A DNA stretch of 40,007 nt from the NCBI GenBank assembly GCA_022564295.1, contig JADFLR010000038.1:1-40007 (forward strand), written 5' to 3'. The position numbers were made by a program, and so were the translations under genes. Under the pieces are notes generated by a model that made no database searches, was not told the DNA's origin, and saw nothing but the letters and a program-made list of their open reading frames with translations. This stretch comes from Bacteroidota bacterium (GTDB lineage: Bacteria > Bacteroidota > Ignavibacteria > Ignavibacteriales > Ignavibacteriaceae). Position 1 is the stretch's first letter; the number at the start of each line of letters is the position of its first letter. Positions 19,469-25,472 of this stretch are shown one piece after another.

Positions 19469-20326
19469 TTATTCCATTCCAAGATATTTTCTTATTGCAT
19501 CTTGACGGTAACCATTTTTGCCGAAACTAATTATCAATCCTGCCTGATGTGTCAATCCGAGGTCTTGATGAGTGAACACAGCATAATCCAAACTGATAAT
19601 TGAATAGTTGATTCCTATTCCTGCAGCATAACGTGCCGGCTCATTTTGGAATCCGAATCTTAGAGAAAGATACTCAATTATATTATATTCTAACCCAAAC
19701 TGAAATGACGGTTTGTAACGAATGTCTTTTTCGACTGCTAAGTTTATGATTAATGTTTTAATTAAATCATAACTGAATCCTGTTGAAAAAATTATTGGTA
19801 TCTGATCATCATCATTACCAATGCTTGCTCTGTTTATGTTAGAGATTGCGAAGCCCCAACGTAATTGATGAGTGATATAAGCAAGCCCTCCAAGGTTTAA
19901 ATAAAATGCACTCGTGTTACCGTAATTTTGAATTGAAAAGGTATGAAAATTAACCGTGATACCTGCGAAGAAATTATTTTCGTAATTATATGAATAACCG
20001 AGTGAAATTTTTGATTCCCTGTAGAGTTCAAACCCGTAAGTCATTCCGCCTAAAGCAACTGTTCCAAATGTGAAAGGTTCTGCATAAGCCACATACCCGT
20101 TAGATAGCTCGGATAAACCAAAAGGAGCAGGGGAGTAGTATATTCCTATTTCTCGCCAATTAAATTGTGATAATCCTGCCGGATTGTTAAACACAGAAAA
20201 AACATCATTACTTAATGCCACATCAGAATTGGATAATGATATTTGTTTTGCACCGGGATTAAATTGTGCATAAGAATTTGCAATAAGAAAAATTGGAACG
20301 AAAAAAAGAATGTAACGTTTGATCAT
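19469..20326 (-). CDS. PorV/PorQ-like outer-membrane protein
   Basis: A 285-residue protein with a signal peptide (cleavage after NSYA), then the FadL-like opening of the PorV/PorQ family: ALSNDVFSVFNNPAGLSQ. Amphipathic beta strands follow to the end. PorV and PorQ work in T9SS, as a carrier-type barrel and a gliding/secretion accessory respectively, but family membership alone does not prove that role. It is the first gene of a pair with the HhH-barrel gene and is divergent from the DUF4835 gene across 77 bases. Confidence 0.75.
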   Translation of the reverse strand: MIKRYILFFVPIFLIANSYAQFNPGAKQISLSNSDVALSNDVFSVFNNPAGLSQFNWREIGIYYSPAPFGLSELSNGYVAYAEPFTFGTVALGGMTYGFELYRESKISLGYSYNYENNFFAGITVNFHTFSIQNYGNTSAFYLNLGGLAYITHQLRWGFAISNINRASIGNDDDQIPIIFSTGFSYDLIKTLIINLAVEKDIRYKPSFQFGLEYNIIEYLSLRFGFQNEPARYAAGIGINYSIISLDYAVFTHQDLGLTHQAGLIISFGKNGYRQDAIRKYLGME

Positions 20327-20403
20327 AGTCTAATAATAATATTGAGACAGTATATCTATTTTTATATATTAAATCAATAAAAATTTAAAATAAAGAGCAA
20401 ACG

Positions 20404-21282
20404 ATGAAAAATATATTTTTAATGCTACTGTTTATTTCCTCGTACAATTATTCTCAGGAATTAAATTGTAATGTTATTGTAAATTATCAAAACGTTCCTG
20501 TAAAAAACAGGGATCTGCTGGTTGATTTTAAAAATGTTGTAGAAAATTATATGAATACAACCCGTTTTACAAATGTAAACTGGGATGGTGATAAAATTGA
20601 TTGTAGTTTGAATATCTTTTTTACTTCAGCTGGAAGTGATGTTGATTACGGTGCGCAGATTGTTGTTGTGAGTCAACGACCTGTTTATCAATCGACAAGA
20701 AATTCAGCATTACTCACTATTAATGATGGCGCGTGGTCATTCAAGTATGAAGTAGGACAATCCATGTATGCAAATTTAGATGCCTTCGACCCGTTAACAA
20801 GTATTTTAGATTTTTATGCTCTTATAATAATTGGGTTCGATATGGATACATGGGAAGAGTTTGGAGGCACTCCATATTTTAACAAAGCTTTTGATATTGT
20901 AAACCTGGCTTCTCCAACGAACTATAAAAACGGATGGCTGCCAAGCAATAAAATATACAGCCGTTGGGGATTGGTATCAGATGCACTGAATGAAAAATAT
21001 GCTGCATTCCGTTCTGCTATTTTTGATTATCATTACGGCATAGATATTTTTGCTCAAAATAAAGAAGTAGGACAGGCAAAGATTGTTGAATTGATTGATG
21101 TTCTCTACGATTTATATGAGCGCACAGGATTAGTAAAAAGTGTTTTTATTCAAACATTTTTTAACGCTAAATATGGTGAGATTACGGATCATCTTAAAGG
21201 TTATTCTGATCGAACAATATTCACAAAATTAAAAAATATTGATCCATCGCACGCAGGCAGGTATGACCTGTCAACTCCTTAA
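20404..21282 (+). CDS. DUF4835 family secreted protein (PorD-type)
   Basis: A 292-residue protein with a short signal peptide (cleavage near NYSQ) and family landmarks: QELNCNVIVNYQ, the SQRPVYQSTRN segment, and DFYALIIIGFDMDTWEEFGG. DUF4835 proteins are near-universal in T9SS-bearing Bacteroidota and are sometimes named PorD; their precise task is not settled. Its place opposite a PorV/PorQ-like gene and the T9SS sorting domains elsewhere in the window support an envelope or secretion role. Confidence 0.85.
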   Translation: MKNIFLMLLFISSYNYSQELNCNVIVNYQNVPVKNRDLLVDFKNVVENYMNTTRFTNVNWDGDKIDCSLNIFFTSAGSDVDYGAQIVVVSQRPVYQSTRNSALLTINDGAWSFKYEVGQSMYANLDAFDPLTSILDFYALIIIGFDMDTWEEFGGTPYFNKAFDIVNLASPTNYKNGWLPSNKIYSRWGLVSDALNEKYAAFRSAIFDYHYGIDIFAQNKEVGQAKIVELIDVLYDLYERTGLVKSVFIQTFFNAKYGEITDHLKGYSDRTIFTKLKNIDPSHAGRYDLSTP

Positions 21283-21431: not shown

Positions 21432-22553
21432 TTAAACATTAATTTCCCAAATTCTGTATGTCTTATATTTATCGGCATTCATTAATTCTAAGCCACGGTT
21501 CATCATATCATTATCTTCCAATACCCAGCTTGCTTCACCTCTGTCAATTCCTAATTTATGTGATCTTTCAAGTATTTCCCAATATAAAACGGCATCAAGT
21601 CCTTTTTTCTGATATTTGGGAATAATGCCAAGCGTTAAAATTCTTCCCCAGGTAATTTTCTTTTTTTGAGTAAATAGTTTTATAAAATTGAAAGGGAAAA
21701 GACGACCATTCATGTTTTTGAATATCTGGTTATAATCTAACATTACCAATGCTGCGCCGACTAATTCGTCCCCAATCGTTCCGAATAATACTAAAGATGG
21801 TTCGGCTAATGGTTTGAGGTCTTTAGCCATAGCATCAATTTCTTCTTCAGTCATCGGAACAAAACCCCAGTTTGGTGCCCACGCTTTGTTATACACATAT
21901 TTAAACTTTTCGATATCCCTATCAAAATTTTTCATATCGAGTTGGGTAACTTTTATATTATATCTTTTCCTTACTATTTCCTGTCCTCTATTTAGTTTAT
22001 CGGATGTTGCAACTTTGGAATGCTCGAGTTTCCATGCGTACATATCTTTAGCTTTTTTCATGCCGTAATTTTCACAAAGGACGTTATAATATTTTGGGTT
22101 GTACGTCATAAGAATTCGGGGTGAATCATCATATCCTTCCAGCAGCATGCCCCATTCATCATTACTTGATGGATTTGCAGGACCCATCATCCTTTTTAAT
22201 CCTTTTTGGTTCAGCCAGCTTTTTGCTGTATCAAATAATGCGTTAGCAATTTCCTGATCATTAATGCACTCAAAAAATCCAAAGAAACCAGTATCGTCAT
22301 TATGATATTTTAAATGCCTATCATTTTTTATCGCCGCAATTCTTCCAACTAAATTACCATCTTTCTCTGCAATAAAGTATTCAGCTTCAGCGTGCTTGAA
22401 GAATGGGTTCTTTTCCTTATCGAGTAATTTTTTCCTTTCCATTATAAGTGGCGGAACCCAGTACTTATCATCTTTATAAATTTCCCATTGGAATTTTATA
22501 AACTTCATCAAATCTTTTTTATTTTGAACTGTTCTAATTTTAATTGAAGCCAT
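21432..22553 (-). CDS. GNAT-like acyltransferase, candidate bacterial ceramide synthase
   Basis: A 373-residue protein with GNAT-type features: AEYFIAEKDGNLVGRIAAIKN near residue 60 and a second half with VGAALVMLDYN and LTLGIIPKYQKKGLDAVLYW, which resembles the acyl-CoA-binding loop. It has the MMGPANPSSNDEWG segment of the long, two-domain bacterial subgroup. In the bacterial ceramide pathway the N-acylation enzyme is a GNAT-type protein, and the position directly after a serine palmitoyltransferase gene supports that job here; a general acyltransferase remains possible. An AAGAGGA ribosome binding site lies 7 bases before the ATG, after the terminator hairpin. Confidence 0.7.
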   Translation of the reverse strand: MASIKIRTVQNKKDLMKFIKFQWEIYKDDKYWVPPLIMERKKLLDKEKNPFFKHAEAEYFIAEKDGNLVGRIAAIKNDRHLKYHNDDTGFFGFFECINDQEIANALFDTAKSWLNQKGLKRMMGPANPSSNDEWGMLLEGYDDSPRILMTYNPKYYNVLCENYGMKKAKDMYAWKLEHSKVATSDKLNRGQEIVRKRYNIKVTQLDMKNFDRDIEKFKYVYNKAWAPNWGFVPMTEEEIDAMAKDLKPLAEPSLVLFGTIGDELVGAALVMLDYNQIFKNMNGRLFPFNFIKLFTQKKKITWGRILTLGIIPKYQKKGLDAVLYWEILERSHKLGIDRGEASWVLEDNDMMNRGLELMNADKYKTYRIWEINV

Positions 22554-22568
22554 AATAAATCCTCTTAA

Positions 22569-22606
22569 ATAAAAAAAGCATACCCATTAATTATATGAGT
22601 ATGCTT
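22569..22606 (-). terminator. Rho-independent terminator between spt and the GNAT gene
   Basis: On the minus strand AAGCATAC (22606-22599) pairs perfectly with GTATGCTT (22583-22576), with further CAT/ATG pairing towards the loop, followed by a T-run. It lies 24 bases after the spt stop and 16 bases before the GNAT ATG. It should end or attenuate spt transcription, so the two genes may be expressed at different levels. Confidence 0.85.
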
Positions 22607-22629
22607 CTAAATAAATAAAAAATGAACAA

Positions 22630-23820
22630 TTAAATTAATCCTAATTGTTTTCCAGCTTTTTCAAAGGTGTCGATGATCTCATCCAGATGTTCTTTTTTGT
22701 GTGTTGCCATGTAACTTGTACGCATCATCTGTCTTCCCTCCGGAACACCGGGAGGTACAAACACATTAACGAATACACCTCCGTCATAAAGCATTTTCCA
22801 CATCTGCAAAGCAATTTCGTCGTTACCGATAATAACAGGAACGATAGCTGTTCTGCCGTCAATAACATTAAATCCTTTTTTCTTTAAACCTTCTCTCATA
22901 TAATTAGCATTGCTAATTAGCTTCTCAACTCTTTCAGGTTCTTCTTCCAAAATATCCAATGCTGTAAGAGCTGCTGCAACAGAGGCAGGCGTTGGTGAAG
23001 CACTAAATATTAATGCAGGTGAGAAATGTTTAATAAAATTAATTACTCTTTCGGGTCCTGCAACAAAACCACCTAGTGAAGCGAAAGTTTTACTAAAGGT
23101 ACCCATTGTCAGATCGATATCCTTCTCAAGCCCGAATTCACTTGCAGTACCTCTTCCGCCTTTTCCAATTACACCAACAGAATGTGCATCATCTATCATT
23201 ATCTTTGCATTATTCTCTTTTGCAATTTTTACCAAGGTTGGTAGATCCACAATTTCACCGCCGGTACTGAACACTCCATCGCTAACTAAAAGTTTGGGAG
23301 TCTCCTTGGGAATTTTGGATAAAACCTTTTGCAGGTCTTCCATATCTTTATGTTTATAACGTGCAAGACTTCCCATAGCACCTTTAGCCATTAAAGTTCC
23401 GGCAACAATGCAAGCGTGGTTATCTTTGTCAGAAATAACGTATTCGTTTCTTCCTACCAAAGTAGGTATTACACCTTGAGCAGTTTGATAACCTGTACTA
23501 AATAACAAAACGGATTCTGTTCCGAAAAATTTTGTAAGTCGTTCTTCCAATTCTATATGCAAATCGAGTGTCCCGGTAAGATATCTTGATCCGGAACAGC
23601 CTGTGCCATATTTTTCTATAGCTTTAATAGCAGCTTCAATTACGCGTGGATGCCCTGTAAGCCCTAAATAATTATTAGAACCAGCCATAATTTTTTTCTT
23701 TCCCTCAATTTGCACAACAGGTCCTTCGTTGGCTTCTATTGCACGAAAATAAGGATAAACACCCGAGGCTTTAACTTCATCAGCACGTGTGAAATCATGG
23801 CACTTTTTAAATAAGTTCAA
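22630..23820 (-). CDS. spt: Serine palmitoyltransferase-type alpha-oxoamine synthase
   Basis: A 396-residue PLP enzyme that condenses an acyl-CoA or acyl-ACP with an amino acid. PLP lysine K244 is in [14 protein letters not shown]135 (DKDNHAC) should stack on the ring and H213 (DDAHSVG) should contact PLP. Other marks are [25 protein letters not shown] and a C-terminal [12 protein letters not shown]. From memory the motif spacing, including the position of the lysine, fits bacterial serine palmitoyltransferases such as that of Sphingobacterium better than BioF or 2-amino-3-ketobutyrate ligase (Kbl). The neighbours support sphingolipid synthesis. BioF-like activity is the main alternative. Confidence 0.85.
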
Positions 23821-23920
23821 CTATTCCTCCAAAGAATATAATAGATTAGTAGTAAAAATAAAGAAAAAGATTGAAAACGAAATAAAAATGAAATCGTAAT
23901 TAATCTTGATGAAAATTGTT

Positions 23921-23928
23921 TAATTTTG
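23921..23928 (+). promoter_or_regulatory. Bacteroidota-type -7 promoter element (TAATTTTG)
   Basis: The 149-base divergent region between spt and the reductase gene should hold promoters for both. TAATTTTG fits the TAnnTTTG -7 consensus of Bacteroidota primary sigma, about 40 bases before the ATG at 23970. A clear -33 TTG at the right distance was not found. Confidence 0.3.
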
Positions 23929-23969
23929 CAGCAAATCTATTACTAATTAGTCTGAAAATCAAATATACT

Positions 23970-24962
23970 ATGGAATCAAAACAAATTGCAGCAGTCACGG
24001 GTTCAAATGGATTCGTTGGAAGTCATCTTGTAGATCTTTTATTGGAAAAGAATTTTTTCGTTCGTTGTGTTGTTAGAGAATCAAGTAATCTTAAATGGCT
24101 GGAAGGAAAAGATATAGAAATCATTAAATGCGGATTATTTGATAAAGCCGGTTTAGCAACAGCATTAAAAGATGCAGATTATATTTATCACGTAGCTGGT
24201 GTGGTAAAATCTAAAACCAAAGAGGGTTACTATACGGGAAATGTTGAGACAACTCGCAACCTGCTTGATGTTGCTCTCGAACAAAATAAAAATTTAAAAA
24301 GATTTGTTGTTCTCAGCAGTCAAACTGTAACTGGTCCATCGCTGAATAGTAAACCTATAAATGAAGAAACTGAATGTGCACCTTTAACAACTTACGGTAA
24401 GAGTAAGTATGAAGAAGAAAAACTTGCACTTGGTTATAAAGATAAATTACCAATAACGATATGCAGAGCACCTGCAGTTTACGGCGAGAGAGATACGGAG
24501 ATTTTTATTTATTTCCAGAATTTTGCGAAAGGTATAACAACAAAAATTGGTCTTGATAATAAGATACTCAGTTTAATTCATGTTGCCGACCTTGTTGAAG
24601 GATTATACATGGCAGCAATGTCAGAAAAAGCAATTGGTGAAATTTATTTTATTAGCTCTGAAAAGTTTTATTTGTGGGATGAAATAAATTCCATAACTTC
24701 AAAGGTATTAAATAAGAAAGCAATTAAAATATTAGTGCCGCATTTTCTTGTTTATACACTTGCTGCAATTGCTCAATTCTTTTCATTATTCTCTTCAAAA
24801 GCTGCAACGCTAAATCTGGAAAAAGCAAAAGACCTTGTTCAGCATGCCTGGATATGTGATACATCAAAAGCAATGAGAGACTTTGGGTATAGGCAAAATG
24901 TTTCAATGGAAGAGGGAATAAAAAGAACTTGCGATTGGTATAAAGAAATGAAGTGGATATAA
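23970..24962 (+). CDS. NAD-dependent epimerase/dehydratase-family reductase, candidate ceramide reductase (CerR-like)
   Basis: A 330-residue extended SDR protein. The Rossmann motif is TGSNGFVGSHL at residues 10-20 and the catalytic pair Y142/K146 is in TYGKSKYEEEK, with S117 (VLSSQT) before it. The frame is open to 23916, but the ATG at 23970 is preferred: it puts the Rossmann fold at the usual place, and a TAATTTTG promoter-like site lies within the upstream extension. In the bacterial ceramide pathway an SDR of this kind reduces the 3-keto group after N-acylation. The divergent arrangement with spt supports that; sugar-nucleotide or sterol epimerases are alternatives. Confidence 0.75.
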   Translation: MESKQIAAVTGSNGFVGSHLVDLLLEKNFFVRCVVRESSNLKWLEGKDIEIIKCGLFDKAGLATALKDADYIYHVAGVVKSKTKEGYYTGNVETTRNLLDVALEQNKNLKRFVVLSSQTVTGPSLNSKPINEETECAPLTTYGKSKYEEEKLALGYKDKLPITICRAPAVYGERDTEIFIYFQNFAKGITTKIGLDNKILSLIHVADLVEGLYMAAMSEKAIGEIYFISSEKFYLWDEINSITSKVLNKKAIKILVPHFLVYTLAAIAQFFSLFSSKAATLNLEKAKDLVQHAWICDTSKAMRDFGYRQNVSMEEGIKRTCDWYKEMKWI

Positions 24963-25073: not shown

Positions 25074-25472
25074 TTAATTATTCTTTGCTCCCTCATCAAT
25101 CCAGGTTTTAACGCCTTGTATTTGCTTCGACGTTAAAGGAAGAAAAGGTGAATCTCTTGGTGGCATTATTGGGAATCCCGATCGCTGTTCAATTGTCCAC
25201 ACGAGTGGGCTGGTATCCGCTTCTCCTGGTATAACTATTCTCGGATCAACAACCCCTGCCCATGTTGTTAGGTCAACTCCACCATCTAATCCTCCGTTAC
25301 CGTGGCACGATACACATTTCAATTCAAATATTTGTGAAATGTCTTTAGAAAAGCTAACATTTGAATCTGGTATTTCGCGGTTATCTACATCCTGAACAGT
25401 TATTGTATCATCACAGCCAGAGTAAATAATTGCTGAAGATACTAATACTATAAAATAAAGTACTTTTTTCAT
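25074..25472 (-). CDS. Lipoprotein c-type cytochrome
   Basis: A 132-residue protein with a lipobox (IYSGC, lipidated C20). It has one haem c site CVSCH at residues 53-57 and a likely distal ligand M103 in FPIMPPRDSP. The layout, with GGLDGGVDLTTW after the haem site and LTSKQIQGVKTWIDEGA at the end, is that of planctomycete-type/PSCyt cytochrome domains. It is anchored in the periplasm, presumably as an electron carrier; no partner oxidase or reductase is nearby. It converges on the reductase gene. Confidence 0.85.
   Translation of the reverse strand: MKKVLYFIVLVSSAIIYSGCDDTITVQDVDNREIPDSNVSFSKDISQIFELKCVSCHGNGGLDGGVDLTTWAGVVDPRIVIPGEADTSPLVWTIEQRSGFPIMPPRDSPFLPLTSKQIQGVKTWIDEGAKNN

Follow-up and report, generated by a model that had tools for sequence, protein, structure and literature searches.

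Candidate ceramide synthesis genes across the Ignavibacteria and the fusion of two of them in two families

Three adjacent genes at positions 21432-24962 of a 40,007-base contig from a Bacteroidota bacterium (JADFLR010000038.1; G000:C43 in our genome set; hereafter the window, which is the entire contig) very probably encode the enzymes that make the backbone of a ceramide or a 1-deoxyceramide. They are a synthase resembling serine palmitoyltransferase (Spt), an N-acyltransferase of the GNAT type resembling bCerS and an extended short-chain dehydrogenase/reductase (SDR) resembling CerR. The basis of this reading is gene identity, family trees, reciprocal searches, the GNAT fold, gene neighbourhood, co-occurrence across the class and a fusion of two of the genes in relatives; from it we infer the enzyme activities, the choice of amino acid and acyl donor, and the sequence of the steps. 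A preliminary description of the same DNA had suggested that the organism may make ceramides, and the trees, the reciprocal searches, the conserved neighbourhood and the fusion now make this highly likely. The host, with a genome of 4.07 Mb whose completeness is given as 100%, is a member of the Ignavibacteriales, since its nearest named loci are those of metagenome-assembled genomes (MAGs) of Ignavibacterium and Melioribacter and of MAGs titled Bacteroidetes bacterium. The locus comprises the following features:

21432-22553, (-) strand: GNAT-like gene, open reading frame (ORF) of 373 aa; predicted bCerS-like tandem GNAT N-acyltransferase of the YghO / CC_1154 family
22574-22608, (-) strand: terminator-like hairpin and T-rich stretch between the synthase stop and the GNAT start
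22630-23820, (-) strand: Spt-like alpha-oxoamine synthase, ORF of 396 aa; putative synthase dependent on pyridoxal phosphate (PLP)
23916-24962, (+) strand: CerR-like extended SDR reductase, ORF divergent from the synthase; likelier start ATG 23970

The gene order, SDR <- -> Spt - GNAT, and the three protein types had been read correctly in the preliminary description, as ORFs, Pfam matches and the GNAT fold agree. The synthase matches Aminotran_1_2 (182.5 bits) and the SDR matches Epimerase (110 bits). The GNAT protein reaches 31.8 bits in total against Acetyltransf_1 (cut-off 20.7), yet no individual stretch of it exceeds the cut-off.

The window synthase is Spt-like and would form a 3-keto long-chain base from an amino acid, probably serine, and a fatty acyl thioester. 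We placed it in a maximum-likelihood tree of 48 rows that included Spt references, BioF and Kbl (SulA was not among the rows). It falls inside a 37-row clade (bootstrap 100, SH-aLRT 99) together with all five Spt references, while BioF and Kbl lie outside it, as the preliminary description had expected of an Spt. The references are the synthases of Sphingobacterium (3a2b), Bacteroides, Parabacteroides, Sphingomonas and E. coli, of which only 3a2b is a solved Spt, the others being taken as Spt by family, NCBIfam score or, for E. coli, a studied homologue in BL21. Within this clade, the window synthase belongs to a 14-row subclade (100/100) of Ignavibacteriota, Saprospiraceae and Bacteroidetes-labelled MAGs, and it is 44% identical to the synthase of B. 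finegoldii. A search of the PDB returned the Sphingobacterium Spt on top (403 bits), with Kbl at up to 250, cysteate acyltransferase at 222, SulA at 194 and BioF at about 180 bits, and among NCBIfam models the Bacteroidota Spt model NF047600 ranks first. The residues K244, H135 and H213, which had been put forward as marks of an Spt, are indeed conserved, but together with D210 they align with equivalent residues of the Spt, BioF and Kbl references and therefore mark the superfamily, not Spt specifically.

Several scores weigh against the Spt assignment. The window synthase lies below all three NCBIfam Spt cut-offs (NF047600, 490.6 against 640; NF047599, 361 against 500; NF047603, 312.8 against 670) and hence outside the named equivalogs, whereas the Bacteroides, E. 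coli and Sphingomonas reference synthases each clear at least one. Furthermore, a BioF/Kbl-type PDB entry (283 bits) is level with the Sphingomonas Spt (281 bits). Together with the generic Pfam matches, these scores are what could be said for a locus unrelated to sphingolipids, in which a Kbl- or BioF-type synthase merely has an unrelated GNAT and SDR nearby. We consider such a locus hardly credible. A Kbl or BioF identity is rejected by the tree and by the presence of a separate tdh-kbl pair: the single further alpha-oxoamine synthase of the genome adjoins Tdh and is thus assigned as Kbl. In the alignment, position 274 of the window synthase (the PLP lysine plus 30) shares its Ala with Spt, the residue being Asn in Kbl and Thr in BioF. 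The Spt-GNAT fusion and the class-wide co-occurrence described below also argue against chance neighbours. The branch is without a curated NCBIfam name, the three members scanned (the window synthase and two fused proteins) all being under all three Spt cut-offs.

Position 274 also bears on a sulfonolipid (capnine) locus, in which a SulA-type synthase would use cysteate as the amino acid. SulA is an Spt-like synthase of an analogous pathway and carries Lys281, near the PLP phosphate, at the position where Spt has Ala (PMC9304779). With A274 at this site, and with SulA and cysteate acyltransferase scoring far below Spt in the PDB search, the sulfonolipid reading is disfavoured and in our view very improbable. 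A closer alternative is that the same enzymes act on a different amino acid, with alanine or glycine (giving 1-deoxyceramides) or another residue taking the place of serine. Two points speak for it: 1-deoxyceramides have been tied to the same Spt/bCerS/CerR pathway and Spt has been suggested to accept other amino acids (PMC11334938), and the window synthase clears no Spt equivalog cut-off. The window synthase is, however, identical to the Sphingobacterium Spt at all 11 aligned sites compared; although these sites leave the substrate unsettled, nothing was found that favours alanine, and we regard serine as the probable substrate and a different amino acid as rather unlikely.

Other synthases met in relatives were considered as Spt and set aside on the synthase tree: neither L145 nor L147 belongs to the Spt clade, and the L148 pair groups with Kbl. 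The alpha-oxoamine synthases L145 (in G004) and L147 (in G038) measure 435-441 aa, and ahead of each come three ORFs of comparable size. L123 is an Spt-like synthase gene that neighbours a TetR regulator on a conjugative plasmid of Bacteroides.

The window GNAT is predicted to be a bCerS-like N-acyltransferase and a member of the YghO/CC_1154 family. It was compared with E. coli YghO, to which it is 33% identical over 373 columns at full length, and with the Sphingomonas homologue. The tie to CC_1154, the ceramide N-acyltransferase of Caulobacter, runs via the legend of Fig. 9 in PMC9386255, where yghO is grouped with it. A model built from YghO and the Sphingomonas GNAT picks the window GNAT first in its own genome (270 bits, next 87.5). 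While a sequence search against solved structures gave no significant relative (best E 0.049), the AlphaFold model (mean pLDDT 93.8) has as its best PDB matches by Foldseek a glucosamine N-acetyltransferase and tandem GNATs (E 8e-14, TM 0.61). Going by this model, the protein has a tandem GNAT fold.

The preliminary description had named a GNAT outside the ceramide clades as a refutation, and on this point the trees are divided. In a quick tree, the window GNAT is part of a 48-row group (SH-aLRT 84) with YghO, the Sphingomonas homologue and other spt-linked GNATs. Two observations qualify this grouping: it also includes GNATs without a nearby Spt, and in a second quick tree both references sit on long branches with the unlinked GNATs of the class (95) and not with the window. 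A second YghO-like GNAT type, found in B. finegoldii and in relatives of the window genome (L040, L150, L151), occupies its own branch of the GNAT tree. The second GNAT of the window's own genome (on contig C37) is probably not a bCerS, as it has a very long branch and only 87.5 bits to the reference model. This distant GNAT (L149, G000:C37:13000-27000) lies amid a run of same-strand genes that by eye look lipid-related.

The window SDR is an epimerase-family SDR linked to spt, and CerR is its best reading, short of proof, from sequence comparison. A model of the spt-linked SDRs of E. coli and Sphingomonas picks it first in its own genome (116.8 bits, next 59.3), and in the SDR tree it forms a firm group (10 rows, 100/99) with SDRs that are linked to spt in related bacteria. 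To this extent the earlier reading as the reductase of a ceramide route is supported. The deep branches of the tree, however, do not place the window SDR firmly with proteobacterial CerR, a point against the CerR reading, and the window SDR and the Sphingomonas protein share 26% identity.

The trio is conserved among relatives, as the preliminary description had proposed to check. In a set of 41 genomes, comprising the window's own and 40 relatives, 37 carry the whole trio on a single contig, inside a span of about 4 kb. In the remainder, the trio is split over three contigs (G007), close matches to it are absent (G005 and G010), or the SDR match contains a stop, the synthase is a fragment and the GNAT was not found (G001). 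Three of the 37 carry imperfect copies, namely a broken frame in the GNAT (G006) or in the synthase (G008) and a GNAT fragment at a contig end (G015). The synthase directly adjoins the GNAT in 30 of 30 loci (the window's own and the 29 best loci of relatives). The arrangement of the trio is not due to chance, given this adjacency and the tight clustering in 37 of 41 genomes.

We also surveyed 149 genomes drawn evenly from the class, with cut-offs of E up to 1e-130 for the synthase, 1e-70 for the GNAT and 1e-40 for the SDR. Each gene is present in 143 genomes and the full trio in 138, nine genomes being without one or two of the three. At these cut-offs the whole trio was not found in G088 and G144, both given as 100% complete. 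Linkage varies. A separate scan retained 80 named GNAT loci and counted neighbours within 6 kb, yielding an Spt-like gene in 50, an SDR in 44 and both in 41, and the trio also stands side by side in plasmid records of Aureispira, Rubrobacter and Streptomyces. The other 30 loci have no Spt within that distance, and although some are at contig ends, several have full flanks. Among ten unfused class loci (L168-L177), the neighbour of Spt is the SDR in six and neither partner in two, and a GNAT is near Spt in only five. These counts weigh against the ceramide reading.

The potential for ceramides in Ignavibacteria is already in print, and the locus adds to a known pathway. Ignavibacter has been listed, with reference to two earlier papers, as one of the genera whose genes would allow ceramide synthesis, and monoglycosyl ceramides correlate with Ignavibacteriales in fluids (PMC10667739); Spt-like proteins have been reported in 38 phyla of one water column (PMC11334938). 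The present survey extends a near-universal ceramide-type gene set to the whole class, for which the printed support that we met consists of a statement on genetic potential and of lipid evidence from correlation. In the literature searched, mostly titles and abstracts and not covering the paper that defines bCerS and CerR, neither the class-wide conservation nor an Spt-GNAT fusion came up.

This fusion was found through the length of the synthase-bearing open frame, which is 799-947 codons in 17 of the 143 class genomes that hold a synthase. In all 17 candidates (L158-L167, L204-L210), one ORF encodes Spt followed by GNAT, with linkers of 20-39 residues in the first ten fusions measured. The fused genomes are confined to two families, accounting for 5 of 5 genomes in one and 12 of 13 in the other. 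Ten fused genes form a single clade in the quick trees of both halves (SH-aLRT 99), and a single origin of the fusion is therefore likely. Long frames in G163, G249, G269 and G287 were considered as further fusions and turned out to be separate ORFs. A phylum-wide sample of 158 genomes contains at least one fused gene (G043, already among the 17). In another study, some Spt matches were reported within longer proteins (PMC11334938). In the window itself, Spt and GNAT are separate genes. The fusion is evidence, at the level of gene structure, that this GNAT would act with Spt; a complication is that two GNAT matches occur in 15 of the 17 genomes with the fusion, making the ceramide GNAT there ambiguous.

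In the pathway that we propose, the PLP-dependent synthase would condense a fatty acyl thioester with serine (or alanine). The resulting 3-keto long-chain base would receive a second acyl chain on its amine from the tandem GNAT, and the SDR would reduce the ketone. We favour N-acylation ahead of reduction because the fusion joins Spt to the acyltransferase. The opposite, eukaryote-like order, in which the SDR would reduce the free 3-keto base before the GNAT acylates it, was put forward by one group for Caulobacter (PMC11324152, PMC9386255), and 3-ketodihydrosphingosine reductase activity has been reported for BT_0972 of Bacteroides (PMC11087976). Moreover, the SDR rather than the GNAT adjoins Spt in some unfused families (L168, L173, L174). 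On the other hand, the fusion links Spt to GNAT and not to the SDR, and deletion of cerR in Caulobacter leads to accumulation of oxidised ceramide, with CerR being periplasmic and Spt and bCerS cytoplasmic (PMC11087976). Reduction first is thus, in our judgement, unlikely, though it deserves to be taken seriously.

The position of the SDR in the fused genomes adds little to acylation first. In 15 of them the SDR and the fused gene are on different contigs; in one they are some 0.2 Mb apart, and in one no SDR was found. The stretches read around the fused genes hold no SDR, although some of these contigs are short and linkage is therefore not excluded everywhere. This absence is weak evidence, because unfused families too (G047, G057, G084) have an SDR without linkage to Spt, a point that tempers the argument for acylation first. 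We tentatively suggest, as a possibility with somewhat less than even chances, that in the two families one bifunctional Spt-bCerS protein would run the first two steps of ceramide synthesis, N-acylation preceding reduction, the window having the unfused form in which the hairpin would set expression. If true, such a protein would settle the disputed step order of bacterial ceramide synthesis for this lineage, and the natural fusion represents a ready-made reagent for the question of whether bacteria acylate or reduce first.

The acyl donor is probably the housekeeping acyl-ACP (ACP, acyl carrier protein) or acyl-CoA, because no AasR was found in the genome. The preliminary description had noted the absence of the dedicated ACP and its synthetase from the window. 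A genome-wide search for an AasR-type acyl-ACP synthetase gave only weak partial matches (best 46 bits), in line with this; a dedicated ACP (AcpR) was not seen beside the trio, and no genome-wide search was aimed at it. In E. coli BL21, Spt yields 3-oxo-sphinganine when its own AcpR and AasR are expressed alongside it; this pair has been described from Rhodobacteria, and some delta-proteobacteria have distant homologues of it (PMC9386255).

Among known systems, the Caulobacter crescentus pathway (spt CC_1162, cerR CC_1164, cerS CC_1154, acpR CC_1163, aasR CC_1165) has the same three enzyme types, a likeness established via the E. coli and Sphingomonas homologues and not via Caulobacter sequences. 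Unlike Caulobacter, the window genome has no detected AasR and no specialised ACP gene beside the trio, its Spt is of another subgroup and the gene order is its own. The E. coli yghO locus (strain PN43; Spt, ACP, SDR, fatty acyl-AMP ligase and YghO) contains homologues of all three window proteins, but with a dedicated ACP and an acyl-AMP ligase and a GNAT of only 33% identity. The Bacteroidota Spt (Sphingobacterium 3a2b and Bacteroides; NF047600) is the best PDB and NCBIfam match of the window synthase, which nevertheless remains under the NF047600 cut-off and in its separate 14-row clade. Unlike in the window, the synthase has no annotated GNAT neighbour in those Bacteroides and Parabacteroides records that were read. 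The identical arrangement, SDR <- -> Spt -> GNAT, occurs on plasmid pAUEa of Aureispira anguillae (identity of 62% for Spt, 45% for GNAT and 44% for SDR). This locus differs from the window in being plasmid-borne and from the class Saprospiria, and it is annotated merely as general enzyme types or hypothetical.

The window synthase and GNAT are separated by a hairpin (22574-22608) with a 14-pair stem and a T-rich tail, and because of this terminator-like element their co-transcription is uncertain. The single call is weak, since the scan gave 2 such sites in the region against 2.1 expected by shuffling. Under strict criteria and with mononucleotide shuffles, terminator-like elements are found in 16 of 30 synthase-GNAT gaps (the window's own and those of 29 relatives) against 0.13 expected, and the stems differ between some genomes. 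The synthase and the GNAT may thus be expressed at different levels. A role of the AGCATAC hairpin as a genome-wide repeat was rejected, as the genome has 2 copies.

Downstream of the SDR and convergent to it, the window carries a small cytochrome-c-like gene (25074-25472, (-) strand; Pfam PSCyt1), a homologue of which (41% identity) occupies the same place in G086 (locus L176). It is possibly relevant to the electron supply of a periplasmic CerR. On the other side, a PorV/PorQ-family gene and porD of the type IX secretion system (T9SS) adjoin the ceramide locus (19469-21282) and are found in the same place in the loci of many relatives.

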